DNA from: Asparagopsis taxiformis
Lineage: Eukaryota; Rhodophyta; Florideophyceae; Bonnemaisoniales; Bonnemaisoniaceae
Assembly (NCBI GenBank): GCA_030407315.1
Contig: JALQPE010000224.1
Coordinates: forward strand, 62,001 to 126,000
Reading direction: 5' to 3'
Length of the DNA stretch: 64,000 nt
Shown here one piece after another: positions 4,217-63,755 of this stretch (position 1 is the first letter of the stretch; each line of letters begins with the position of its first letter). Made by a program: the position numbers and the translations under genes. Below the pieces are notes generated by a model. The model was not told where the DNA came from. It was given only the letters and a program-made list of their open reading frames with translations, and did not search any database.

Positions 4217-4477
4217 TGTGCGGCGATCGCGTTACTTGTCGCCGATTGAAAGGATGGGACGATTGCCCAAGTTGACAACGGCACGACAATGTATGTAGTC
4301 ACTACGCCGCGCGAGCAACATGTATGTATGTAGAATACATCTGTACCGTTGTCATAACATTACTACACAACAAACCCTAAATATTTGTCATTCAGGTAAG
4401 CAGCTCTGCAGAAAGCATTACCTCAATTTGATCCTTCTGAATGATCATTACCGTTGCACCGCCACGCAATGCACAAA
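4217..4477. promoter_or_regulatory. Short bidirectional intergenic region between UGGT and PMS2
   Basis: About 260 bp separate two divergent start codons, so both promoters must lie here or overlap the 5' UTRs. I see no convincing TATA box. The assignment rests on gene orientation only. Confidence 0.4.
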
Positions 4478-44771: not shown

Positions 44772-45011
44772 TGTCGGATGATCATAATGCATTACAGATA
44801 CAAATTACACCAAAACTAGTAGACAGTATTTAAACCAACACGACGACGCATAGAATCTGTCAGGACGCTAACTCATCAAACGAAACTAACACTAACAAGT
44901 ACACTGAAAAGCGTTACACTGACAATGCGACAAGCATAAAGAATAGCATTTAAGACCACTTACGTTAGGATCAATAAACAGACGACGGTGACGGTGATCA
45001 TCCTTCTAACA
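44772..45011 (+). repeat. Putative 5' LTR of the copia element
   Basis: It would begin TGTCGG and end CTAACA (TG...CA) and is followed by GGTTATCGGCCC at 45012, resembling the copia primer-binding site for initiator tRNA-Met. The length (240 bp) is typical for copia. A GTATTTAAACC sequence near 44827 could be its TATA region. No second copy exists in the window to confirm the boundaries. Confidence 0.4.
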
Positions 45012-45059
45012 GGTTATCGGCCCTTATCGCTTCCACTGCCAGCTTCATCACCAACCAAC

Positions 45060-45755
45060 ATGACAACGCCAACCATCCCACCGCTGAAGATGACGAACGC
45101 CAAACTCTGGCTCCGCATGCTCCAAGCCGTCGCATACGACCTACACCTCGACACCCTCCTCGACGCATCGCACACAGCACCACAGGAACCCGAACAATAC
45201 GCCGAATACAAACACCAACAAGAACGCCTAACAGTACTCATTCTCACCAGTCTACCTGAGGAAATCACATCGACTCTCACCGACGACCAACTAAAACTAT
45301 CTCCATATCTCCTCACACAACATGTCATCAACACCGTCACTGAGAATACAGCAGTCGACTACAGCCTCCTTGAGTCGAAAGCTCGCAATACCCGCCTCTC
45401 CTCCCTGGATGACGCGGAAGACTACATACTGCGCCACAGGAAGATCCGCATCTCCATGTGCAATGCCAACTACCCCCAGATCAGCGATGAAAGCACCACA
45501 GTCAACTTTCTCATCCACGGCATACAAGACGTCGCAGCACACCACCACACTCACGACACGATGATAAAAATCCCTCCCCCGACCATCTCCGCCTTTGCAT
45601 CACGTATCCACCGTATCATCAACAGCATACAGGAGCGCCAAATACGCGCACCACACTACGCCCACACAAGAATTCCCCGCTCAATCCATACCAAATGCCA
45701 ACCACACCGCTGGCACCGCAACAAAACACACAAGAATGAGCCTAACCGCCAATAG
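45060..45755 (+). pseudogene. copia gag
   Basis: From the ATG at 45060 the frame gives about 231 residues of copia-type capsid: KLWLRMLQAVAYDLHLDTLL, then TSLPEEITSTL and SLLESKARNTRLSSLDDAED. It ends at a TAG (45753-45755). The same frame goes on directly with CSYHNSSTHSNRDC, spaced like a retroviral zinc knuckle (C-x2-H-x4-H-x4-C), so the gag protein originally extended further. The TAG is either a decay mutation or a readthrough site. Confidence 0.7.
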
Positions 45756-46949
45756 TGCTCCTACCACAATTCATCTACACATAGTAACCGCGACTGTCGT
45801 GCACAAAAGCATAAACGACAGCCCAGCCACAACGCCCACTCTGCATCCGTATTACCGATGATTGACACTAGGGATCCACAATACAACGCCACTGTGGCTC
45901 CCAATCCCACACATGCCCAACCGAGGCTTGACCTACCTGACCCCGAACCCCAGCGTAAGTTCTACATCCTGGACTCTGGGGCTCACCCCACACATCTTAC
46001 ACGGCCACGTCCTTACACCAGACCACTAACGACCCCCGTTACACAAGAACCGCTGACAATCGTCGACACACAATCACGCACTCCGGGCCCGTGCAGATCC
46101 CTACGAAGACCATGAAGATAAATATATCTGACGCCATCGTCACCCCAACTATCAAAAACAACCTGGTATCGGTCCACTCACTCGCCCGCAACCATGGACC
46201 CGTCACATTCACTCCATCCAAGGCCTACATCAACACCAACGATCGCCACAGTACCCAACCAATAGCATCCTTCCGAGATGGATTATACGTCATCGACAAT
46301 AAACCCCCAGGATTCCCAGACATACCACCCCGCTGCAACAATACCAACTCCTCATCTACGAAACCACCTCGCACAGACAGCAAACGAGTACCACCGCACC
46401 CGATGACGACACGATCACGCACACAACAACAGACTCGCCAAAACAGCAAGTCGAAATCCACACACACATTGATACCGGACACCCCGTCAAAACACACTCG
46501 TTCCAAAACAAAGACTCGGAACTGGGACAGACCGTGGCACACCAGCCCAACCACCAAACCTATACATCGCCCCCAAATCACAACTCCGCCCAAGCCGCAC
46601 ACTTCTCAAACCCAAAATCGCCAGGAACAACCACCCAAAATGACCACACGAACGAATCCATCTAAACCACACAAATCAAACACAGCCCCGCAGACGAGTG
46701 TCAAACATATCGCCAAGACAGACGAGCATCAAACCCAACCCACCAAACTGTCAACAGCACCACTGCTTCTTAAAAACACACCTATCACCGCTCCGACCCG
46801 CACATACCAGATCGTTAACCCCACCTCTGCTAAACCCAGGACGTTCCACCCACTATATGCACCAGATACGGATGACAGACCACACCCCGCACATGACCTG
46901 CACCTAAAACTCGGTCATCCCAACCCTCAAACCATGCGACAGATGTGCT
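45756..46949 (+). pseudogene. copia protease and pre-integrase region
   Basis: The frame after the gag stop carries the aspartic protease motif FYILDSGAHPTHL (about 45957-45995). Near 46085-46091 the reading shifts by one base into the frame with NNLVSVHSLARNHG and, further on, DLHLKLGHPNPQTMRQM, the GAG-pre-integrase hallmark. A long Thr/Pro/Lys-rich stretch lies between these. The frame ends at the solo LTR inserted after 46954. Confidence 0.65.
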
Positions 46950-46954
46950 GGCAC

Positions 46955-47611
46955 TGTAGTATACGTGGCAATTCCGAAATTGCAAATATTTACGTTTTCC
47001 GCGGAATTCGAATTTCGGCGGACACGACCGGCGACAGCAATGCACGAACATTGCTGGCGCATGCGCGCGCGCAACCGGCACACGTGTGCAACGAACGTAC
47101 TGGCAACGGCCACGGACCAACGGGTCCCTACGTGTGACCCACAAGGTCCTTCCCAATTCGGGGACGTTACGAACAGTGTTTACACTGTAAAGCGATGCCA
47201 TCGTGGCCATATAGGTATTGGCATCGTGCCGGGAGGGAAAGGGGACAAGACAACGATCGAGCAACGGCTCTAGTCTACGACTGACTTCTACGTTTTACGT
47301 TTACGTTCTGCCTAACGAGGCTTCGTCTCCGTCGAGCTGCGTACTCCCTACCCATCGCCGCACGTAAGGCTGATTGCGTGTAGTGCCTCCGGGCTTGGTT
47401 GAGAGCGCCTCCGGTGACGTACCACCTCGTTTGCTAACGTAATCCTCGCGTGGATTGTTGCGTCGTGACGCTCGTGTCTACTCGCTAACCACTCTACCTT
47501 CTACCGTTCTAACAATACAGTCAAACACAGCGGGTGGACTGCTCGTTTCGTTTCGTAAGGACAGCGTGTCCGTAGCTCGTACCAGCTATCTAGAACTAAC
47601 GTGGTTCCACA
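46955..47611 (+). mobile_element. Solo LTR, family A, with 5-bp target duplication GGCAC
   Basis: The 657-bp insert starts TGTAGTATACGTGG and ends TTCCACA, with GGCAC on both sides (46950-46954 and 47612-47616). A second, diverged copy of the same sequence forms the LTR at 49522-50196, which shows what it is. Removing the insert and one duplication rejoins the copia frame (MCWH to KRIPALAP). Recombination between the two LTRs of a full element probably left it. Confidence 0.88.
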
Positions 47612-47616
47612 GGCAC

Positions 47617-47828
47617 AAACGAATCCCGGCACTCGCCCCATATGAACACATGACAATCCCAGACATGACCTGCAGCGCGTGCGCCATAGCAAAAATCAAA
47701 GCCGCCCCTCATAAACCGTCCAAACACGACGACCAAATCGGTGAGTACATTTCCTCTGACGTCTGCGGGCCTCTACCCATCACATCCAAGCAGGGCAACA
47801 AATATTTCGTCACGTTCATAGACACCAA
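47617..47828 (+). pseudogene. copia integrase, N-terminal part
   Basis: The frame resumes after the solo LTR with the integrase zinc region (MTCSACAIAKIKAAPHKPSK) and the core start SSDVCGPLPITS, then NKYFVTFID with the first catalytic aspartates. It is cut by the second solo LTR directly after FIDT. Confidence 0.75.
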
Positions 47829-48620
47829 TGTAGGACCAGCCGGGATGGCGATCGCTAAGGGAGTTCTAGAATTGCAGCCATGTCAGGGCGAGGTGAACCG
47901 TAACGCGCTGGGTGAACTTGCGTTTCGCGCGTCGCTCGGTCGCGCTAGCGATCGGGTGGTACAACGGCGGAACGCGTAGGGAACGATCGCAACACGGGAT
48001 TCGCAGGCCGGCGCAAGCCGTGATCTCAGGGTGAGATCACCGAGTAAACTCGAGCACAACGCGATCCACACAGGGGTCGTAAATCCCTGGCCTAGTGGCG
48101 TGCGACGCAACGCGCGCTATCGCGGTGCGGCGCGGTTCGACGATCGGTTTATGCGCAGCGCGCAAGCGAACGTCGGCGATCGTGAGCAACCCGCACGCAA
48201 CGTTTCAACGCAATCGGTCCTCGCGATTCGCTAAACGCTTAACTCGTAGCTGCGAAGATGCTGGCTGTTTATTGGTAAGGTGCGAAGCCGAACGACCATT
48301 AATAGCTAACTACTAAAGGACAGACTGTCCTTACGTGGCCGGCCGGCGGCCGCTCGCTCGCACGCAAAAAGGGAAATATTTGGGAAAAAGACTTTCGTCA
48401 TAAAAAACCCAAAAAAGGGGAAATAAAGGGAAATTCGTAGAAGGCGCTACACGTGGCACCGGGCTCGCAATCGCACGCGTTCGCGCAGGCGCGCCGTGAC
48501 ACGTAATTGTATCGCCACGCGTACGCTCGCTTACTAACTAACTAAACGCGGATGCATGCGGACTCAACGCGACGCATCGCTCCGACCCGCGCGCGCACTC
48601 GCAACATAAATTGCATCACA
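47829..48620 (+). mobile_element. Solo LTR, family B, with 5-bp target duplication ACCAA
   Basis: The 792-bp GC-rich insert starts TGTAGGACC and ends GCATCACA, flanked by ACCAA at 47824-47828 and 48621-48625. The interior is unlike family A. Removing it restores the integrase frame (FIDT to RYITEYFI). The TG...CA ends and 5-bp duplication identify an LTR, although no second copy of this family is present in the window. Confidence 0.8.
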
Positions 48621-49521: not shown

Positions 49522-50196
49522 TGTAGTATACGTGGCCAATTCGAAAATGGCAAATATTTACGATTTCCGCGGAATTCGAATTTCGGCGGACCCGAGCGAT
49601 AACAGCAATGCACGAACATCGCTGGCGCGTACGCGCGCGCAACCGGCACACGTGTGCAACGAACGTACTGGCACGCGGCCAACGGACCAACGGGTCCCCA
49701 CGTACGACCCATAAGGTCCTTTCCCATTCGGGGACGTTACGAGCAGTGTTTACACTGTAAAGCGATGCCATCGTGGCTAAATAGGTATTGGCATCGTGCC
49801 GGGAGGGAAAGGGGACAATTATCGATCGGGCAACGTGCTCTAGTCTACGACTGACTTCTACGTTACGTTTACGTTTACGCCTAACGAGGCTTCGTCTCCG
49901 TCGAGCTGCGTACTCCCTGCCCATTGCCACATGTGAGGCTGATCGCGTGTTGTGCCTACGGGTTTGGTTGAGAGCGCCTCCGGTGACGTGCCACCTCGTC
50001 CGTTGACGTAATCCTCGCATGGATCGTTCGTCGTGACGCCCGTTTCTACCTGCTAACCTATTCTCTACCCTATCCTTTCTACTTCGCTACCAATACAGTC
50101 AAACACAAGCGGGTGGCACTGTTTCGTCGTCTCGTTCGAAGGAAAGCGTGTCCTCTGGTTCGTACCAGCTACTCTAGAACTACCCATCGTACCACA
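49522..50196 (+). repeat. 5' LTR, family A
   Basis: It starts TGTAGTATACGTGG and ends TACCACA, like the solo copy at 46955, and is followed at 50198 by TGGTCTTCCGACC, which has the TGG expected of a primer-binding site. The copies differ by scattered substitutions and small indels, so they are not recent twins. Confidence 0.82.
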
Positions 50197-50304
50197 CTGG
50201 TCTTCCGACCTAGAAGTTGCTACGAGCAAAACGACAACCAACGAGATTGAGCTCTTTTACGTTACGAAAGCTACGTGCTAAAGACTACGGTCTATGACTA
50301 CGCT

Positions 50305-52229: not shown

Positions 52230-53159
52230 ATCGTCGATCACCCATCTCCCTCACTATCGCGTTCTTCCTACCATCCGAACGCCATGCACCACCATTCGCA
52301 CATACTTCAAGAACCCTCACGACCTAGATTACAAAAATCCGCTCCTTCCCAATACCATCCCCGCTTTCCTCGACACCACCCAGCCCATTAAATCATCAAG
52401 ACATCAAACACGAACATGGTCAGCAAAATCTTACACCACTTGAAACCCACTCTCACTTCTATCGTATGCCTGAAAATATACACCTACCAGAAACAAATCA
52501 GAGATTCATTCCCCATCTTCCTAGATCCCTTCTTCACTCTCCTGGAGTTCTGCCGTTCCTGTTTCACCACTCCTGCATCACATACACAACATCAGAATCA
52601 ACCACAACAGTCAGATTCAAAAGCAACGCTTACCACGACAGATATCCTAGAAACTCCCTTACTTACCTCTCATCCATCCTACACACAATACAAACCATGG
52701 TCCAAAAACCTTGCAATGAATAATCATAGTCAGCAGTCCATATCTTCGCAAAACACATCTTGGCGCTCAATGAAACTTACCTTCCGTCATCAAAATTCCT
52801 GCATCATCTACGCAACATCGGAATCAAACACAGTAGTCGGACTCAAAGCCAACCTTCCCTCGCAGCATACTTTCAAAACTTCACGTACCTCTCTTCCATC
52901 CTCCGCTCAGTACACACCATGAGTCAACAGGCTTCCAATGAAAAATATCGCATCAACGGAAATAGTCAGACTCAAAACCCACGCTTCCCTCAATGCATAC
53001 CCTCGAGGGTAGAGGATGGAACGAAGGTACGTGCGCGAATCTTGATCAAGATTCCCGCACGTACAAAGAAAAGGCGGTCAAAGGATCTCAGTCGGTGATG
53101 AGGGCGGAGTGGAGCCTGCGGCGTCGGCCGGAAACACTACGGTGTTGAAAAGGGGGCCT
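52230..53159. other. Low-complexity region with an imperfect about 230-bp duplication
   Basis: The plus strand is poor in G and rich in C and A. Segments around 52567-52625 and 52797-52855 are recognisably similar (CTGCATCA, ACAACATC and GAATCAA blocks in the same order), as are those near 52674-52740 and 52897-52970. Frames up to 168 codons arise from the base bias. I see no protein domain. It is probably non-coding mobile-element interior. Confidence 0.45.
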
Positions 53160-53515
53160 CAGACAGTACTGCGAGACAGTGATTTTTACTGTCTGAGACA
53201 GTAAAAATCACTATGCGGCAAATGAAAATTAATGCCACACTTGGAGACAGTGATTTGCACTGTCTGGCAGACAGTACGGAACACTGTCTGCAGACAGTAA
53301 AAAACACTGTCTCACAGTACTGTCTGAGGCAGTGAATGGAGACAGTAAAAATTAATGATTTATTCAATAGTTGGATATGATGTAATTTACTGTACTGGGC
53401 AGTGTTGGCGGATAGTGTTGTGTATTGGCCTAGGCAACATGGCCGGATAGTGAAATACGCTGCCTGGGACAATAGATGGAACCAACACGGTGCACTGTCC
53501 TGGGCAGTACCTGGA
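53160..53515. repeat. Degenerate GACAGT/ACTGTC inverted-repeat field
   Basis: Many copies of GACAGT and its complement ACTGTC alternate at irregular spacing, for example TACTGTCTGAGACAGTA near 53189. It appears to be an older, diverged version of the regular array that follows. Confidence 0.7.
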
Positions 53516-53900
53516 GACAGTGATTTTCACTGTCCTGGGCAGTACCTGGAGACAGTGATTTTCACTGTCCTGGGCAATACCTGGAGACAGTGATTTTCAC
53601 TGTCCTGGGCAATACCTGTAGACAGTATTTCGTGCTGCCCTGGGCAGTACCTGTAGACAGTATTTCGTGCTGCCCTGGGCAGTACCTGTAGACAGTACTT
53701 TGTGCTGCCCTGGGCAGCACCTGTAGACAGTACTTTGTGCTGCCCTGGGCAGCACCTGTAGACAGTACTTTGTGCTGCCCTGGGCAGCACCTGTAGACAG
53801 TATTTCGTGCTGCCCTGGGCAGCACCTGGAGACAGTATTTCGTGCTGCCCTGGGCAGCACCTGGAGACAGTATTTCGTGCTGCCCTGGGCAGCACCTGGA
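53516..53900. repeat. 35-bp minisatellite, 11 units, each with an internal palindrome
   Basis: Units starting GACAGT lie exactly 35 bp apart from 53516 to 53866, ending at 53900. Most contain GTGCTGCCC-T-GGGCAGCAC, a perfect 19-bp palindrome; the first three carry a CACTGTCC/GGGCAGT variant. Neighbouring units are nearly identical, which implies recent unequal exchange or slippage. No stop occurs in some minus frames for 147 codons, but this is a product of the 35-bp period, not of coding. Confidence 0.92.
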
Positions 53901-55708
53901 GACAGTAAAAGTAGTGTCCTGATATAGTAAAATTCGGTGTCTGGGAGTGGTGGATGAGATGGAGCGTCACGCTGTCGTGGGCATCTTTCTGGGGTAGAGG
54001 AAGGCAGTTCTAGCGCTATGAGGATGGGGCATGGACGGTATTCATATGGGAATGGACAGAATAGTACGGCTAGGAATTTTTATTTCGTAGTGACTATGAG
54101 CTAGCGAGAGGTATACGCGGTAGGATAGGTAGCAATCTAAGAGGGTGCGATATGGGAAGCTTCACTTTGGATTTGTTTATTTGCGCAGGCTACATTGCGA
54201 ATAAACAATCCCTATGTTAAAAATGCTACTACAACTAACACTATTCCGACGAGTAAAACTAAAACTACTAGAAAAGTCTAGAAATCTATCAACTGATTGA
54301 GCTGCATGAATAAGCTAGGAAATGAAGAGAAGAAGAAAAAATGATGTAGAGAAAGGAAACAAGTTAGTGACGTTGAATTGGAGAGGGAAATTGATGGTGA
54401 TTAGGAGACTAACGTACCTTAACAAATACCATTGCATCCCAAATTGAGATATGTACTCACAGGCAGAAAAGAAAAGTAGTGGAGAAGTGGTAAGAGAGAA
54501 AGATAAATGAAAGTAGAAGTGGAACACTCACCGACTGGAAACCTGAGAAAGAGAAAACGAATAGAAAACTGGGTTAGTGGCGTGAGTTGTGGAAACGTAC
54601 CATCATGGTTCATATCCGTCGGAGACAAAGCAACAACTTTGGCCTTGGGAGCAGTATTGATGATCTAAAACTTACGCTTTGGAAGCAGTATAGATGATCT
54701 ATACTGCTTCCACGGCCAGAGTTGTTGCTTTGTTTCCGACGGATATGAAGATGGAAACAGGGATCTCCAGAATCTGTTGTTTAAGTAGCACTCTGCGGGC
54801 GGAAATGACGTGTACTCTAACAATAGAGGGATGAATTTGAAACGGAGCGGTGCGATGGGAGGCCCAGAAAAACGATACCTAGGGTGCGAATTACGCTTTG
54901 AAGCACATGACCTGGCAGAACAGGCGCAAAATTATTGTATCTTCTACCGCCTTCTCTAGTCTATAATGACGTCATCACTACAGAAATATAGGAAAAACAC
55001 TAGCATATGGGGCCTACTGGAAAGGGGGAGGTGAAGAGTAGGAAAAATGGCGCACTTTCCTGGACGAGGAGTCCGCGCTTCCAGTGATGATTTGGACGGT
55101 ATATATCGATGACGTCATTGCATGCTCTGAGCACACTTGGCAGGCAGTCAAAGCGGGCCACGTGGATGTGGGCGGCTAGGAAACAGCAGTGTGGGAGAAA
55201 TTTTATAATTTTCATGTTGCAAGCGAGCAGTGAATCTGCATTGCAATATATAAATTTATGCTAATTTAAGATATCACACCGAGTACGATTCAACGAGAGA
55301 TTGTGCTTTCAACTTGTAAATAGGGCCGAAAATGGTAGAGTATACGAGTAGGAAGTACGTGTATGAGAAAATCAGATTCAGTATTAGTGCCTAGAGCATC
55401 ACTGCGAAATAAACGGCCGTTTTCCGGAAATGGATACATCTTGGCTGGGTTTGTGGTTAGGGGATGCGATACAAGATAGCAAAACGATGTTGAGTCCGGA
55501 TGAAATAGCAATCAATGTGCATAAAGCAATGAGCATAGGGCAAAGCATTGTGGTGAACCAGTTCATTGGATCGAATGAAAGCCTGGAAAGGTTTCGTAAC
55601 GGTTAAAAGTAGTAGTACTGTATTGAGATAGTAGTCATGTCATAGAAGTTTAGAGTTGTATTCTATGCAACAAAACTGAGCGAAGAAGAAAAGAACAAAA
55701 ACATCAAG
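53901..55708. other. Intergenic region upstream of the transposase-like gene
   Basis: After a short degenerate tail of the minisatellite this is AT-rich DNA without a supported gene. It contains the long foldback at 54611-54747 and, at its right end, the 5' region of the gene at 55709. Short frames (up to 73 codons) are not convincing. Confidence 0.5.
54611..54747. repeat. Long imperfect foldback with a 31-bp perfect inner palindrome
   Basis: The left arm (54611-54666) and right arm (54692-54747) are complementary with few mismatches over about 56 bp. In between, GGAAGCAGTATAGAT-G-ATCTATACTGCTTCC (54681-54711) is a perfect 15-1-15 palindrome, so the right arm can pair with either of two left partners. 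Transcribed RNA would form a hairpin of precursor-miRNA size. It may equally be a small foldback transposon. Confidence 0.8.
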
Positions 55709-58597
55709 ATGGCTCCGAGACGGACTCCTATTCGAAAGAAAACCACAAGTCGTAGGACAAAGGCGAGATTCGATTCACTCAATGTGGCCAGTCCCAGTAA
55801 ACAGCTTCCTGGGAAACTGCAGGGAGAAATCCGCAGCAGTGATGCAGCCTGCATGAACAAAGAAATCCCGAGAGGTAATGAGCTACGACGTGAGTGTACC
55901 ACAGATGACCTATTGGAGTCCCCAATCCCTATGGGTGACACAATAGAAGGTTGTATTGATGTGTACAGCAACAACGATGAAGCTGGAAGTGACATCTACG
56001 TAGCATCGAGCACGCTAATGGAATCGGAAGAAGCAACCGGACGAGGTTCTGATTCCATTTCAACTGGAGGCCCGATAGACCGAAATGCTGGGGATGAAGC
56101 ATGTGGTGATTTCAAGGCATTACTACAATGGCCTGCGATGTATGGGGCTCTTCAGCTGAGTGGAACTCAAAGAATGACAAGAGCCCACTATGAAGGTACC
56201 CTGTTCGGAATGAATTTCCGCAGAGATCCAAGTGAGCACGTCCCGTCGGACTCTGTGATGCGACAGAAGATACTACCATTCTTGAGGAAACACTGCTATG
56301 CAAAGAGCTGTGACATCGAGTTTCCGATGGACCTTCGAAAGAGCGGAGCAAGAGCTGCACAGCATCGAGATGGAGTAGGAACCCGTGGAACAACAGATGA
56401 CAGAGACAATTGTGGAGGAATGGCGAAAGTTCGTATTGTACTCCCAAGCACATGGGCTCTGAAAGATGTCCAGACTCGACCAATCTTTGAAGCATTCCGC
56501 AGTGATGCGAACAATCGAAGCTCGGAAGGAGAAAAATCAACCGCAGAGTGCAGCATTGAAGATTCGTTCATTGCAAAGTGCAGGAGGGGTGTTTTGAGCG
56601 ACCCATTCGTTCGCACAGCAGTTGTTCCCATTGACAGCGATGGGAAAAAGGGTTTGAAGCACATTTATGTACCTGATGGAACAGCAATTCGAATCCGATG
56701 TCATCCAGGAGCTCGTCAGGTTGCCGTCATCGAAAGAGCAAAAGGGTTCAGGAAGAATGACAGAGATGGTGGGAAACCGAAGAGGAGAAGAGTGGCGGTT
56801 ACGTCGTTGTGGGAACTTCATGCTAGGACCATAGTTACCTATGAGGCTCGACACGACGGTGAGCATGATGTGCATGTCGAAAAATATCTGCAGCCGCGAA
56901 TGTCACATCTATTGGAATGGGAGAGGCAGCATGCTCTGCGAGCGATATCGCAATGTGTAATCGGAGCAGGAGCCAAGGGAAAAGTAACACGAGCTGGGGA
57001 CGTGATAACCGTTCTATTACCAATTGGAATGGAAGAGGGTGATATTGTTCCACACGTCGTATTGGTGAACAGGTATTTGAAAGAGCAGGTCGGAGAAGCA
57101 TCCACCATGTTACTTTGCTTTTCACCGGGCGCGAGCTTTGCTGAAGCCAGAAACCCGCCCGATAGACTAGGAAGCCCCAACTATGAAGAAATTCGTGTTT
57201 CAGGGGTGTTCTCGGATGGTTTCGGAGACCACAGGTCGCAATGGCACCCAGCGTCTCCGCGAGAAGATGCACCATGTTGGGGAAAGCTGGAGGATGGTCG
57301 AAACTACTTTGTTTACCGATTTCTCCTTTACACGGATGACTTTGAACCATTCACAAGCAGGAAGGGAAGTTTTGGTGGATGCTATATGTTACCTCTCAAT
57401 CTACCGCCTCGGAAAAGGGGAAGCTACCAAGCGGTTCGAGTGATTGGTTTGCCACCTCCGGGAGTGTCCACAAATTGTGTATTGCGATATATCGTTCAAG
57501 ATATAGTGCGAGGAAGCACAGAGGGTTTCCCAACGAAAAATGCAGAGGGAGAAGATATTGTGGTATTTCTAGACCCAGTGGGGAGCATTGGAGACTATCC
57601 TGCAGTTTCACATACCCTGGATGTTCTTGGACACACATCAAACTCTCCGTGCCACATCTGCAGTTTCCGCAAATATGACCTGAGCAGTACTGGTGGCACG
57701 AAGAATGCATACACTTCGGTAGTGAACGGGCAAACATCGACGCATGCCAGGAGCAAGTATCGGAATGCATCGACACGTAAGGATGCCACAGAAACCCAGC
57801 TTCGCACTCTCGGACTGGCTGCAGAAGAAGGGGAAGATTTACCATTTCATGTCCTGAGCACTTCCTTGGAAGCAGTGCAGGAGTTATTCACACAGATGGC
57901 CAGCACATTCCAAGGTACTACAAGTGGCTCAAGTGCAAGTCAGAAGAACCCGTGGAAACCACTTCGACCGAAAGACAGCACTGGTGTATTCAAGACGGAC
58001 CGGAAAAGCATCTGCGATGACCTTGAGCAAGAAAGCGCGCGGCAGTACAGGAACAAGCTGATTCTGGAGCTAGGTAAGGCGATTTGTGCGGAGAACCTGA
58101 AGCTCGGGTTTGGAAGAGAAGAAGCGGTGGTCTTTCCAGAAACGGGTCTTCGTCTGATTTTGACCGCAGAAGGTAGTCAGGAGCAACTTATGCATACCGA
58201 TGTTCCCGTCCGTGAGGGAACTGGAACTGGTCCTCTCAACTCGCCATCATATTTCATGATGGCTGCTGGTGCGGATGGGTTCATCATTCGTATCGCCAAG
58301 TTCAGCCATGTGTGCCTAAGTCATCCAGCGAAAGACAAGTACCGCGTGCCAGTGACGAACGTGCGCATCCCACCGTATTCCCTGCTTGTATGCCGAACGG
58401 ACGTGTATCACGGAGGGTCGTTCTTCGGTGAGGTACCAGCATCCTATCCGGTCCCATCTATCACTGCGAACTTCCAGGGAGAAGTTGCTACAGCCTCCCT
58501 TCAATGTCAACTACTGGGAGCGTTTAGATATCTGATGAAATTAGTTCTTAATAGCATTCTATGGCAGGCATCAAGGCCGCCTTCAAGTAAACGATGA
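55709..58597 (+). CDS. TNP2/Plavaka-like transposase region fused to a putative 2OG-Fe(II) dioxygenase
   Basis: The 962-residue single-exon protein starts with a basic segment (MAPRRTPIRKKTTSRRTKAR). Residues about 530-655 look like the core of TNP2/Plavaka-type transposases: FLLYTDDFEPF (first Asp), SFGGCYMLPLNLPPRKR, VRVIGLPPPGV, then IGDYPAVSHTLDVLGHT and CHIC (GD.PA block with zinc cysteines). The usual downstream transposase region is replaced by a linker and a module at about residues 755-940. That module has TGLRLILTAEG, H829-T-D831, SPSYFMMAAGADGF, a basic-hydrophobic strand and H901 in DVYHGGSFF, the HxD...H layout of 2OG-Fe(II) oxygenases. The gene at 60109 ends in the same module. 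The frame is intact. The transposase and oxygenase assignments are by pattern only; the residues 140-520 are unrecognised. Confidence 0.65.
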   Translation: MAPRRTPIRKKTTSRRTKARFDSLNVASPSKQLPGKLQGEIRSSDAACMNKEIPRGNELRRECTTDDLLESPIPMGDTIEGCIDVYSNNDEAGSDIYVASSTLMESEEATGRGSDSISTGGPIDRNAGDEACGDFKALLQWPAMYGALQLSGTQRMTRAHYEGTLFGMNFRRDPSEHVPSDSVMRQKILPFLRKHCYAKSCDIEFPMDLRKSGARAAQHRDGVGTRGTTDDRDNCGGMAKVRIVLPSTWALKDVQTRPIFEAFRSDANNRSSEGEKSTAECSIEDSFIAKCRRGVLSDPFVRTAVVPIDSDGKKGLKHIYVPDGTAIRIRCHPGARQVAVIERAKGFRKNDRDGGKPKRRRVAVTSLWELHARTIVTYEARHDGEHDVHVEKYLQPRMSHLLEWERQHALRAISQCVIGAGAKGKVTRAGDVITVLLPIGMEEGDIVPHVVLVNRYLKEQVGEASTMLLCFSPGASFAEARNPPDRLGSPNYEEIRVSGVFSDGFGDHRSQWHPASPREDAPCWGKLEDGRNYFVYRFLLYTDDFEPFTSRKGSFGGCYMLPLNLPPRKRGSYQAVRVIGLPPPGVSTNCVLRYIVQDIVRGSTEGFPTKNAEGEDIVVFLDPVGSIGDYPAVSHTLDVLGHTSNSPCHICSFRKYDLSSTGGTKNAYTSVVNGQTSTHARSKYRNASTRKDATETQLRTLGLAAEEGEDLPFHVLSTSLEAVQELFTQMASTFQGTTSGSSASQKNPWKPLRPKDSTGVFKTDRKSICDDLEQESARQYRNKLILELGKAICAENLKLGFGREEAVVFPETGLRLILTAEGSQEQLMHTDVPVREGTGTGPLNSPSYFMMAAGADGFIIRIAKFSHVCLSHPAKDKYRVPVTNVRIPPYSLLVCRTDVYHGGSFFGEVPASYPVPSITANFQGEVATASLQCQLLGAFRYLMKLVLNSILWQASRPPSSKR

Positions 58598-58755
58598 AAG
58601 TTAGGCTAGTACATGACGTTTGCGTATGTAGACGGGTCGGGAGATATACAATACTCAATTTAATATGAGAAGGGGAGGAAACTATGGTGGGCACTACTAG
58701 AATAGAACAAGGTAATATCGCAGTCGTCTTTGGTTACAACATTGAGGTGAGGAAG
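58598..58755. other. 3' flank of the transposase-like gene
   Basis: Short AT-rich spacer between the stop codon and the first foldback cluster. No feature is seen. Confidence 0.5.
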
Positions 58756-59043
58756 GCTTACAGATGATGCAGTTTCGCTGGGGTGCTGACAGCAAAGTCA
58801 TCGTTACGATGACTTTGCTGTAATGATTTGATTTCTTACAGCAAAGTCATCGTAACGATGACTTTGCTGTAAGAAATCAAATCATTACAGCGGCCACAAT
58901 TTTTTACCGGGTAAAAAATTCTTGCTGATTTTTTTACCCGGTAAAATTTTCTCACCACTGTAATCAAACCTTTCCTTACAGCAAAGTCATCGTAACGATG
59001 ACTTTGCTGTAAGCATCCCGGGTAAACGGCTTCGGCTGTAAGC
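58756..59043. repeat. Foldback cluster 1 with three palindrome copies
   Basis: Three copies of CAGCAAAGTCATCG-TAA/TTA-CGATGACTTTGCTG (58789-58821, 58835-58873, 58975-59013) are present. The second lies in a 75-bp palindrome (58817-58891; arms of 36 bp, 3-nt centre). Between the second and third lies ATTACAG...CTGTAAT with inner palindromes around ACCGGGT and ACCCGGT (58898-58920 is perfect). The outer edges GCTTACAG (58756) and CTGTAAGC (59043) are also complementary, with about three quarters of the following 38 positions matching. The whole cluster is therefore one nested inverted repeat. Confidence 0.9.
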
Positions 59044-59579
59044 GGTTGGGAGTTTCGTCCGTCTCCCACCCTGGGAAGGGTGAGAAGGGAAGTGTGGAGC
59101 CGGGAACATCGTACAACGATGGTTTGGACGACTGTTGACGGCTCTGGGGAGCACTCTGCGTCGTGCAAGCCTGGTTTGCGCTGGCTGCACTACCTGGTAT
59201 TGAACGGTTCTGTGCGCAAAGTTTACTCATGAAGGAGGTAGGGTGTTGTGTACCACACCAACCATAGTTACTAACATTTGCAGTGTACTCTAGTGATGTA
59301 ATTATTATTCTAGTTTCTAACTATACAATGATATTAAGTAAGTCAGATGTGCACAGAGCATGGTCTAAGCCTAGCACGGTAGAGAAAGATGGAAGAAAGA
59401 TTGAAGGGTAGGCATGCAGAAGTATGAAGGCAGCAGTATGTGTAGACTATGGCAGTGGTAAGAAAATATTTCATGCACCAAAGGGTGGGCAGAGTGACAT
59501 TAGAGAGGTGGTGTGTAGGGGGAAGGTAGGTGGAGATGATGGAGGACAACAGAAACGAGAGCGAGGGTTGAGACCAACG
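59044..59579. other. Spacer between the two foldback clusters
   Basis: The 536-bp spacer has no supported gene. Short minus frames (up to 84 codons) have no domain. The left 190 bp are GC-richer, the rest AT-rich. Confidence 0.45.
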
Positions 59580-59903
59580 GCTTACAGATGAAGCAGTTTA
59601 CCAGGGATGCTTACAGCAAAGTCATCGTTACGATGACTTTGCTGTAAGGAAAGGTTTCATTACAGTGGCCATGATTTCTTTACCCGGTAAAAAAATTCCT
59701 GGTCGCTGTAATGAAAACGTTTTCTTACAGCAAAGTCATCGTAACGATGACTTTGCTGTCAGGAAACAAAACATTACAGTGGCCATGATTTCTTTACCCG
59801 GTAAAAAAATTCCTGGCCTCTGTAATGAAACGTTTCCTTACAGCAAAGTCATCGTAACGATGGCTTTGCTGTAAGGATCCTTGGTAAACTGCCTGAGCTG
59901 TAA
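59580..59903. repeat. Foldback cluster 2 with three palindrome copies
   Basis: The same 39-bp palindrome as in cluster 1 occurs at 59610-59648, 59724-59762 (one mismatch) and 59837-59875 (one mismatch), about 113 bp apart. The two spacers are near-identical and contain ATTACAGTGGCCATGA, TTTACCCGGTAAA and CTGTAATG. The left edge GGCTTACAGATGAAGCAGTT (59579) matches the reverse complement of the right edge of cluster 1. The right edge (GGTAAACTGCCTGAGCTGTAA) is its imperfect complement. Confidence 0.9.
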
Positions 59904-60108
59904 TTGTCGTACAACGAAAAGTGATGTGGAAGGTTCGGATTGGTCAACCGCTGAATATCATTACCAGGGTGTATACTAATAGGAATATGTCAGATCTCTA
60001 AGTTTCGCCTATCTTACTCAGCTTACGCAGCAAAACAGCTTGTCGTTCAGATCTTCTTCTCTATTTCTCAATCTTTCACTCTTCTTTCCTCATTTCTTCA
60101 CCAAAGCA

Positions 60109-63100
60109 ATGGCTCAACAATCCCCCAACGCTTTCGACCGCCAGGTGCGCTCTGCCAGCCGCCGTGACAACGATTCTCCCACTCCTTCTCCCTCTCCTTC
60201 TCCCTCTCATTCTCCTTCTCTGGCCCCCCCTGTCCCCATGGACGTTTGCGAAGCTGCTGCAGCGCTGACCCAGCTCAGCCCAGCACCTAAGCCCGTCCCC
60301 TCCCCCCCTTCCGCTTCCGATCCCGCGGTTGTCCCGACAATCGACGCTGGCGTTCCCGCAACTCCGCTTCCGGCTCAATCTGCCGAAGCGGCGCCAGCCG
60401 TCGAGGGATCTGGTGCTCCTCTGCCTAGTTCGCCTGCTCCGGACATGATCATCGCGTCCGGCAGCGACTTGGCAGAGGATGCGGAGAAGGTCGATGATCA
60501 CAACGCTCGTGACATCGTACCGAACAAGCCTCTCCGCAGCACCAGGCTGGCCTACCCTGGCACAGTGCCCATCCCGGTGGATGTGGACTACGACATAAGT
60601 CCGGAGAGCTGCCGAAACATTCCAGTCTTCATTTCCCCTCTGGATGTTTCTCCTCCGGCAGTCGTGTCCAGGGTGGTCAGGCCGCATCGCGTTGATGAGT
60701 TGAAGAAAACGTTTCTCACTCAGGGATTTTCCGTGATTGCTTCACGCGTGTCCGTCTGCGAGGTGATTGATTCCAATGCAAAAGTCCGACTGCAATACGT
60801 CGATGGATCTCACCGAGTGACCGCGTTGAAGGCCATTCTCGAGTCGGCTGGACCTGCTCCTGCGAAGGACAGTCCAGAGTGGGAGGAGTTTGTCAAGTCT
60901 GACATCTACCGTCGCTTTGGAACTATTCCAGTCGACTTTCTCCTCCCACCGACTCGGCTTGGCCGGGATGTCTTCTGCTCCGAAGAAGTACTCCCGCTTT
61001 CACGGCTGATGAACTTCCACACCCACAATGTCAGCGAGGTAACAGTTGCTGACAATGTGTGCTCTGTGATGGAGTTCATCAATATCCACCGCCTGGGAAA
61101 GAAGAAGATCGAGCCGACCGTTCAATACATCAAAGAACGGAAAGCGCTGAGCTGGATTCGTCCGAGACAGCTCATGCGCTACGTCTCGATCGCGCGAGGG
61201 TTCAAGACCATTGAAAGCCCTGCTTTCAAGTACTGGTCGAGTATTCCGAACAGGCCGGAGTTCGTGCAGTTCTCTTCGACCGAGGATCTGGCTGGTTGTA
61301 CGGTGAACTTGTTGTTCAATGGGTCGTTCAGGAGTGCTCCGGATGTGCAGAAGTGTTTCATCCTGGAGATGACGGCGCGCTACACTTGTAGCCGTCGGTC
61401 GGCCGGGCTGAAACCGTACTCGGTTGGCACCATTGGGCAGGAATGGATTGCTGGTTTGTTGGAAATCTTCGGGTACGTGAAGGAGGTGGCCGAGTACTGG
61501 AACGTGTCGGATGTGTTGCGGATGCTGGATGGCTCAATTCCCAGCGTGGGTGACCCGAGCAAGAGCTTCGACATTCGCTCGCGCGTTGTCGAAGTTCTTG
61601 CTCAGATGGTCCCCAAGAAGGGGTGTTGGGCAGACTTCCGTCCCAAGGAAGGCCCCCCCGATGGTTACAAGTCGGAGAACATTTTTCCCCGTAAGAAGTC
61701 TGTCTTCGGGAAGGACGCCAGGAAAATGCTCCTGCGCGTCACTGGGTACCGCGACATGATTATGCGGAAACGCTTTCACGCGATGTACCCAGACATCCCA
61801 CATGCTGCGCTCCCAGCCACATGTGGTGATGATGCCCCCATCCCTTCCTCTTCCAATTCCTTGCCCATCCCTTCATCCTCCATCCCTTTGCCCCCACCAC
61901 CTCAACTGGAATCTTCCAGTAATTCCGAGGTTGCCCCTGTTCCTCTCACTACCCCTGCCGTGTCTGCATCCTCCCCTGCGGTGACCCCGGTCAAGCCGAC
62001 TGCGCGTGGTCCCCAGGCTGGCAGTGAACAGTCTGGTCCAGTTTCCCACGCCGGGACTGGTACCCCCAACCGTCCTGTCCAAGCCGCGCAGGAGCAGGTC
62101 TCACCGGCTTCGCAGCCTGAGCCTGCGACTCCGGCTGCCGAGCAGCACCCTGCTGCTCCGGCCCCCGCTGTCGAAGCTTCCCGTTCTGCATCTGCTAGCA
62201 GTTCGGGAAGCTCCAGCGATGACAGTTTCGTCCCTTCACCATCCGGTGGGGTTGGACAGAAGACGGTTGCGAGGATTTCGACGGAGGGCCCTACTCCCGA
62301 GAATGTGGTCGAGGGCAGCAGTGCGAAGGGCGGTGCAGATCCTGACGGGGATGTCATTGAAGTCAGTGATTCTGCACCGCCCGGAGTGGAAACTTCTGGG
62401 AGGAAAGTGATGCCCAGAAGGAGTACCCGCCTGCAAGCGAGTCGTTCCGGTCGTGGTGGAACGGCGGGTGGTGCTGTGGAGGTCGTCGAGCTGGAGAGCG
62501 CCCCCGAGGATGCGGGTGAAAACTCCATCCTCGGGAAGCGTAACTTGGATGCGCCTTCTGCGACGCCCGAGCCTTCTACCAAAAAGAGAATGCTCGGTGA
62601 GACTTCATCAAAGTCGTCGTCAAAGAAATCCAAGTCGGCTTCCCGAGGTCGCTCTCGGGAGCCGGTTCTCCAGTTCGACGACGCCCAGGAGAATCCCATT
62701 CCCGACAGTATCGTCGATGAGAATGTGGCCGCCGTTCTCCCCAGCGCAATTGCGTCTGGCAGCCGGATGAAGTACTATATGGAAAGTACGACGGTGGAGA
62801 CGGTTCGGGCGGAAATGAGGGCGGCAGCATTCCAGGTAGCTGCATCGCCGGGTGCTGAGGATACGGTGGTGGAACAGTACTTTGCGGTGAAGCGGGCGTT
62901 GCTGGAAAACTTGGGGGTTATTGTTTTGGAACGCTTGTTGGAATCGTCCACGGCTGGGAGTGCGACGCATGAGCTGTTCGGTCACTTCGCTAGGCAGTTC
63001 CCGCTGGTTGAGGAGGTTGAAAAACCCTCCCAGCAGTCTGATTCTAACGATGACGACAGGGAGCCACAGGACGAGCCGCCAGCTTTCGCAAAGCCCAGCT

Positions 63101-63755
63101 TCGATCCTTCGCCGTGGCAGTTCATCCACAACGTGGGTGATGCGAAGGACCGCATAGATGGTGGTCGTGGGCGCCTCACTCTGCCGCGGCGTGAGTTGTG
63201 CGACAAGTTGGAGGAGGAAAATTTGGATATGTATAAGAACAAGTTGGTGGCAGAGCTTGCTCTTGGTGTTTGTGCGGAGTTCTCAAGCTGGGAATGGAGG
63301 GTGAGGATCCTGTCTTCTTCCCGAAGACAGGATTGCGGCTGCTTCTTACAGCAGATGGGGCTGCGGACCAGGATGGGCACACGGACTTCAAGGTAACGAC
63401 GAATAGTGTTGGAAGTCCTACCAAGTCTCCATCATATTTCATGATGTCGAGCGGAGCCGATGGGTTCTCTATAGTAGTTGCCCCTTATAGTCATGTATGC
63501 CTGGCCAATCCGGACGCCGATATGTGGAAGGTTCCCATTCATAGGCTGTATGTGCCACCCTATTCGGTATTGGTTGGTCGCGGTGACCTTTACCATTACG
63601 GGGTCGGCTTCAAGCGCGGAGATATTCCTGCGGGCGAAAAGCTAGTCTATGGCCTGCCCACGCGCGGCCACATTCACTTGAAGACGGAGAAGGACGTCCT
63701 CACGGACCACATCCACACCGTCGAATATTACAAGTACGATAGGAGCAATAGATAG
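60109..63755 (+). CDS. ParB/Srx-like protein with frameshifted C-terminal 2OG-dioxygenase-like module
   Basis: From the ATG at 60109 (AGCAATGG) the first frame gives 1095 residues to 63396. After a Pro/Ser-rich N-terminus, a ParB/sulfiredoxin-like domain is visible: VVRPHRVDELKKTFLTQGF, then QYVDGSHRVTAL (residues 229-240) with the DGxHR motif. A helical region follows, then a long Pro/Ser/Ala-rich linker with basic patches (KSSSKKSKSASRGRSR). Near the end the CDxLEEE...YKNKLVAEL segment matches the module of the gene at 55709. At 63279/63280 the coding continues in another frame (LKLGMEG, TGLRLLLTADG, H-T-D at 63378-63386, SPSYFMMSSGADGF, distal His at 63594-63596) to 63755. One missing base explains this. 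It could be a pseudogene, a sequence error or programmed shifting. A frame upstream of 60109 starts with a non-ATG codon. Confidence 0.6.

Follow-up and report, generated by a model that had tools for sequence, protein, structure and literature searches.

A reading frame joining transposase and HxD-module sequences in the red alga Asparagopsis taxiformis very probably arose by a deletion inside a giant CACTA transposon

Giant DNA transposons of the EnSpm (CACTA) superfamily are already on record for red algae. Those of Chondrus crispus span 16–20 kb and carry four to five open reading frames (Kojima et al. 2013, cited in PMC6431247), and a giant EnSpm with several accessory genes is described from Bostrychia (Petroll et al. 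2025, cited in PMC12477816). The element described here belongs to the red alga Asparagopsis taxiformis, and one copy of it lies in a stretch of 64,000 nucleotides (the window), part of contig C224 of a 141.5-Mb assembly, the contigs of which are designated by C numbers throughout. In this copy a single frame of 962 codons combines a transposase-like N-terminal part with a C-terminal HxD...H module. The element shares with the known red-algal giants the host group, the CACTA superfamily, a size above the usual, and several accessory genes. It differs from them in that its complete copy on C1830 measures 25,292 bp, as well as in the presence of ParB-like–HxD genes and of a SET domain on a methylase protein, which the accessible parts of these sources do not mention for the known elements.

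The element Sola1-1_Ec32 of Ectocarpus encodes an accessory protein of 1,104 residues with a ParB-like part and a DNA methyltransferase (PMC12477816, as far as accessible). Gene C of the present element (1,158 residues) resembles it in joining a ParB-like part to an N4/N6 methylase and in lying on the strand opposite to the transposase. In contrast, the present element is of the CACTA type, its methylase protein ends with a SET domain, and the HxD module occurs on two further ParB-like proteins. In fungal DNA transposons, TET/JBP genes are reported from eleven lineages, EnSpm and Plavaka included (Kojima 2025, PMC12730594, in the part available), and the likeness consists in an oxygenase gene of its own, probably epigenetic in function, next to that of the transposase. 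The algal element stands apart from these in having no detectable TET/JBP similarity, a ParB-like N-terminus on the HxD module, and a methylase–SET gene in addition. The portions of two other papers that were at hand (PMC13297926 and PMC12695648) contain nothing further on such elements, and the searched literature, accessible in part, does not describe ParB-like transposon proteins with a SET domain or with an HxD module. In these sources, as far as they could be consulted, giant red-algal EnSpm elements and ParB–methylase transposon proteins are thus already known, whereas neither the HxD genes nor a methylase fused to SET turned up in print.

The fused frame (55709..58597, plus strand) starts with ATG and is open over all its 962 codons. 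It contains GDYPA at residues 628–632, C648-x2-C651, H829-x-D831, and H901, the last three of the H and D residues being at the places given for them by a sequence-only reading of this DNA, which had taken the frame for one protein with both transposase and oxygenase functions. No Pfam family matches the 962-residue product at E up to 1. The frame is not a product of chance, as seen in a genome search with its full length (1,221 first-look candidates, 40 of them scored, with the window copy counted in). Among these 40 matches, 27 extend over the entire 2,889 bases with 99–100% identity, and the other 13 are confined to bases 1–2174. Twenty of the full-span copies have exactly 2,889 bases, three (on C1577, C1674, and C436) have 2,906, and the rest have 2,888, 2,887, 2,887, and 2,895.

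The origin of the frame is revealed by comparison with unfused copies. Six of the 13 short matches were fetched, and all six are collinear with the window to base 57882 and diverge from that point. In L010, a short match with its frames listed, the same N-terminus runs into a different and longer C-terminus, giving a protein of 1,267 residues in all. Over positions 53135–57882 the window is collinear with all six unfused copies, at 98.0% identity in the case of L010. In turn, positions 57877–60654 are collinear at 96.9% with L027, the stretch of C1830 that carries genes A and B, and the collinearity continues into gene B. Because the left part follows L010 and the right part follows L027, the frame of the window is a join of two neighboring genes. 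The missing piece, measured on C1830 by arithmetic from the coordinates, amounts to 5,444 bp and comprises transposase residues 726–1267 (the last 542) together with gene A residues 1–864. A transposase match and the gene A module are also found on the same strand, 5.4–5.5 kb apart, in C44, C856, C1547, and C2484. The comparison thus shows the transposase and gene A apart in the complete copy, a single deletion that joins them, and numerous near-identical fused copies, and the fusion is an ordinary deletion derivative. We consider it very probable that the 962-codon frame was created where an internal deletion brought two genes of a giant CACTA (EnSpm) transposon together, in a derivative that would be mobilized in trans and should have neither activity. 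The union of two functions in one protein, proposed in the sequence-only reading, was not supported, since the join is an internal deletion between adjacent genes; its transposase-like half and the conservation of HxD...H stood, and a TET/JBP identity of the module found no support. Two enzyme-like halves in a single open frame can be a deletion scar that was multiplied, and this corrects a reading that was attractive but wrong.

As the complete copy shows, the deletion of about 5.4 kb removed the end of the transposase and the front of gene A, leaving one open frame by chance. The fusion lacks Glu940 of the transposase as well as the start of the HxD module, and its product should have neither transposase nor HxD activity, because the presumed catalytic glutamate and a part of the module are lost. 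Internal deletions of the maize En/Spm and Ds elements have a short overlap at the junction, are non-autonomous, and are moved in trans. The same three traits are read or presumed here. Unlike the maize deletions, this one creates an in-frame fusion of two genes, in a derivative that is still 18.5–19.5 kb long.

A second deletion, of 17 bp, scrambled the tail of the protein in the lineage of the window copy, in which the residues corresponding to Arg1059 and His1061 of gene A are replaced as a result of the frameshift after the distal histidine. Two of the three fused copies that are 17 bp longer (C1577 and C1674) have a frame of 968 codons and match the window tail up to its residue 187; the third, C436, is absent among the listed matches to the C-terminal part. 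The latter come from a protein search with 3,446 first-look candidates, of which 150 were scored, giving at least 153 matches. Among the matches listed, many are 97% identical over residues 1–187 and belong to frames of 1,087 or 1,078 codons, and the fused copies appear with a frame of 983 codons in 20 rows, 985 in one, and 968 in two, so that at least 23 have a long frame. The window copy differs from each of seven other fused copies by 1–3 substitutions in the 2,889 bases. We read the fused copies as a recently amplified, non-autonomous derivative moved in trans. Such a derivative would keep its termini, and the many near-identical copies would be explained if complete copies mobilized it in trans.

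The complete transposase has 1,267 residues and is intact in C1830 (at 78141). Its residues 540–764 match the L062/L063 proteins of the same genome with blastp E 5e-8 and L058–L061 with E 0.015–0.017, in a set of eight frames. The L058–L063 proteins in turn match PF02992 (Transposase_21), a family found at 36 places in this genome, 34 of them above the cut-off. These matches, together with the CACTA ends of the element, bear out the earlier reading of the N-terminal part as a transposase, here of a TNP2/EnSpm-like kind, and the CACTA termini and TNP2 similarity point away from KDZ transposons. A three-protein alignment places Asp543, Asp629, Cys648/Cys651, and Glu940 in the complete transposase. 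Glu940 stands past the fusion point and corresponds, in this alignment, to an E-R pair common to the two Transposase_21 proteins; a catalytic role is presumed for the residues named. Two complete transposases differ at two nonsynonymous and no synonymous sites, and the fused N-terminus differs from L010 at four and none, respectively.

The surrounding element, a giant transposon of the CACTA (EnSpm) superfamily, measures about 25 kb when complete. Its ends are inverted repeats beginning CACTACGGTGTTG. The left start, CACTACGGTG, is exactly the same in six copies (the window included) with unrelated flanks, and its inverted counterpart on the right is present in C1830, C1561, C436, C1856, C1805, and others; further copies and terminal inverted repeats, which the sequence-only reading proposed to look for, both exist. 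The complete copy (C1830, 75535–100826) was read without a gap from end to end and contains the transposase, gene A, and gene B in this order, as well as gene C and a gene for 536 residues on the opposite (minus) strand. It also includes a 453-residue frame that lies partly within a stretch absent from C224. About 1.3 kb of the C1830 copy (L038:219-1515) is absent from C224. Fused elements measure 19,463 bp in C1561, 19,410 bp in C436, 19,428 bp in C1856, and 18,542 bp in C1805, with both ends present in these four, and the right terminus of the window copy lies past the end of C224. The coordinates of the features in the window are given in Table 1.

Table 1. Features of the fused CACTA copy, in positions of the window
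Feature	Position	Strand	Evidence
Left terminal repeat CACTACGGTGTTGA; 14 bases recur, inverted, at the right end of C1830, C1561, and C1856, 13 in C436	53135..53148	+	Exact start in the window and five other copies
Left subterminal repeats: 40-nucleotide inverted pair 53156-53195/53291-53330; 35-bp tandem repeats from about 53354	53156..53948	.	
Fused reading frame, 962 residues	55709..58597	+	Spanned by 27 of 40 scored genome matches
Codons 1-725, TNP2-like N-terminal part of the transposase; D543, G-D629-YPA, C648-x2-C651, without E940	55709..57883	+	Collinear with L010 to 57882
Deletion junction, transposase ...GCAGGA / gene A ...GAGTTATT, GA (2 bp) common	57880..57884	+	Junction alignment
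Codons 726-962, truncated gene A tail; H829-x-D831, H901; frameshifted after the distal His	57884..58597	+	96.9% DNA identity to L027 from 57877
Site of the 17-bp deletion between CGGAGG direct repeats; frame shift directly after the distal histidine	58410..58411	+	Alignment; three fused copies 17 bp longer
Spacer rich in inverted repeats, from the gene A tail to gene B; repeats of this kind also precede gene A in L027	58756..59903	.	
Gene B, the second gene of the ParB-like + HxD type; frame broken into 60040-63396 and 63237-63755, which overlap but differ in frame	60040..63755	+	First part collinear with L027/L028

Several observations weigh against the interpretation of the frame as a deletion derivative of a mobile CACTA element. 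A target-site duplication of 3 bp was found in none of the five elements with both flanks read (left/right: ctg/cac in C1830, cca/tgg in C1561, gga/gag in C436, caa/aac in C1856, and cta/tgc in C1805), the flanks being identical over 2 bp in two of the five. Since no such duplication is seen, transposition of the whole unit is inferred from the termini and the dispersal of the copies; wrong joining of flanks by the assembler around long near-identical repeats is possible. The full-length transposase matches no Pfam family, and its kinship with Transposase_21 draws on comparison with two families from this genome, of which a single one has an E below 0.01. Finally, the finding that 20 of the 27 fused copies share one exact length and at least 23 have a long frame would be expected of a functional fusion as well.

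In four further elements a single end was located. In C2260 (L053:729-738; C2260:45028-45037) a right end directly abuts the left subterminal repeats of another copy, a nested insertion, and the left partner of this insertion, needed for the target-site duplication test, was not found. Additionally, a copy of a different repeat terminates in about 16 bases from the terminal repeat of the element (L012:9756-9771). Because the other 39 of the 40 scored matches to this different repeat break off immediately ahead of them, the bases may be a remnant or footprint.

Gene A, as read in L027, encodes 1,086 residues, is ParB-like in its N-terminal part, and ends with the HxD module; the frames of gene B are broken in both copies read (C224 and C1830). 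That the transposon had captured a host gene was suspected at first, as the adjoining gene B ends in the same module; this was rejected when C1830 placed gene A in the same element. The term ParB-like denotes a resemblance only, the pattern V..L......G...DG.HR...A in four aligned proteins. The ParB_N profile matches none of genes A, B, and C, its one match in the genome being elsewhere (C1526), and gene A compared with a PHROG ParB-like family gives a weak E of 0.024, with the matches to GmrSD and DndB weaker still. The family of proteins combining ParB-like and HxD parts exceeds this element: just outside the right end in C1830, on the minus strand, lies another such gene in two overlapping frames (L038:5277-9370), with a module 29–30% identical to that of gene A. 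A viral or bacterial origin of the HxD genes was also considered and rejected, as no relatives were found in viral contigs, phages, or species genomes, in pattern-first viral and species searches that reach mainly close relatives. A search of the same kind found no relatives of the transposase in viral contigs.

The HxD module is likely, but unproven, to be a 2-oxoglutarate (2OG)-Fe(II) oxygenase. Its histidine, aspartate, and distal histidine are kept in all five aligned modules, as the sequence-only reading had expected for homologues, and these three residues, together with those equivalent to Arg1059 and His1061 of gene A, are invariant in all three paralogues, two of which are 43% and 29% identical to gene A. 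By eye, the order of the HxD, SH, and distal-histidine motifs, as well as the start of the module, resembles enzymes of the PhyH type, in an alignment that is not significant. TET/JBP identity, raised earlier as a possibility, found no support, as PF12851 (Tet_JBP) has no match in the genome; this null result says little, because 14 control genomes are silent too. The competing explanation, in which the module has another fold and the HxD...H pattern is coincidental, appears rather unlikely in view of the invariant residues and the PhyH-like motif order. In its favor, the modules have no significant match in Pfam (three modules compared, none matching), PDB (best E 0.61, to unrelated molecules), NCBIfam, or PHROG, their similarity to the PhyH proteins of the same genome is not significant, and two AlphaFold models of the module, made with two-sequence alignments of window sequences only, reach a predicted local distance difference test (pLDDT) score of just 32.6 and 31.1.

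A different role for the fused protein would be that of a regulator. Truncated transposases of other families repress transposition, and a product that retains residues 1–725, with the presumed DNA-binding N-terminal part, might occupy the ends of the element and act likewise. The open frames kept in at least 23 fused copies (983 codons in 20, 985 in one, and 968 in two) agree with such a role. On the other side, there is no signal of conservation: in the window and seven copies all five variable sites are nonsynonymous, compared with 71% expected without selection, and they are too few to decide. This evidence against a regulator is weak, because chance alone would yield five nonsynonymous sites out of five in about 0.18 of cases. 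In all, we regard a regulatory function as improbable. Far less credible still is a working transposase–oxygenase that edits methylation at its own copies: it has in its favor the one open frame, the retained HxD and distal histidine, and the high copy number of the fused elements, yet it is contradicted by the missing catalytic glutamate presumed for the transposase, by the missing start of the module and the conserved arginine and histidine frameshifted away in the window copy, and by the separation of transposase and gene A in the complete copy.

More than the deletion derivative itself, the accessory genes of the complete CACTA element deserve attention. Gene C (C1830, 92778–96251) includes an N6/N4 DNA methylase (PF01555; residues 655–878, 60.9 bits against a cut-off of 26.7, E 2e-16) followed by a SET domain (PF00856; residues 1004–1151, 27.5 bits against 22.4, E 5e-6). 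Its PDB match is DpnA (E 0.0016), and its methylase part is 24–28% identical to methylases of bacterial plasmids and phages. All of the best 40 among 3,826 first-look candidates cover the full 1,158 residues with no stop. A pair of gene C copies differs at seven nonsynonymous and eight synonymous sites (ratio 0.26), and gene A and its copy differ at 12 and eight (ratio 0.44). With a single pair of copies for each, these ratios hint that selection may maintain gene C, and perhaps gene A.

In the complete element, the writing of DNA and histone marks is the most likely role of gene C, genes A and B would most likely be oxygenases targeted to the element, and the three together may set the chromatin marks of the element itself. 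We can speculate, quite tentatively, that they form a chromatin kit of the CACTA element, in which gene C would write DNA (adenine or N4-cytosine) and histone methylation, genes A and B would remove or convert marks, and the ParB-like part would direct the proteins to the hairpin-rich spacers and subterminal repeats of the element. If so, each copy would set its own chromatin state, and deletion derivatives like the copy in the window would ride along. An element that brings a methylase and a SET domain as well as two oxygenase-like proteins, each having the same kind of ParB-like front, would then offer a self-contained test of transposon-controlled epigenetic marks in red algae, and the near-identical complete and deleted copies in one genome would provide a natural comparison.

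An alga as the host, proposed from the sequence alone, agrees with a match to the phycobilisome linker LR_gamma5 (E 5e-76) beside a PhyH gene, with R-phycoerythrin gamma chains at 9e-43 or weaker; proteins of the phycobilisome-linker type are presumably a marker of red algae. Two contigs may be contamination, namely C1526, with the only ParB_N match of the genome, and C1317, with a PhyH gene whose neighbors look bacterial by eye. Elsewhere in the window, positions 4454–28433 carry long, intron-poor host frames (MutL-like, amine oxidase, anthranilate synthase, and nucleoporin), and positions 45000–48000 carry broken Ty1/copia-like frames with integrase-like residues recognized by eye. A segment within the latter region (46955–47619) recurs at 49522–50197 and in L009.

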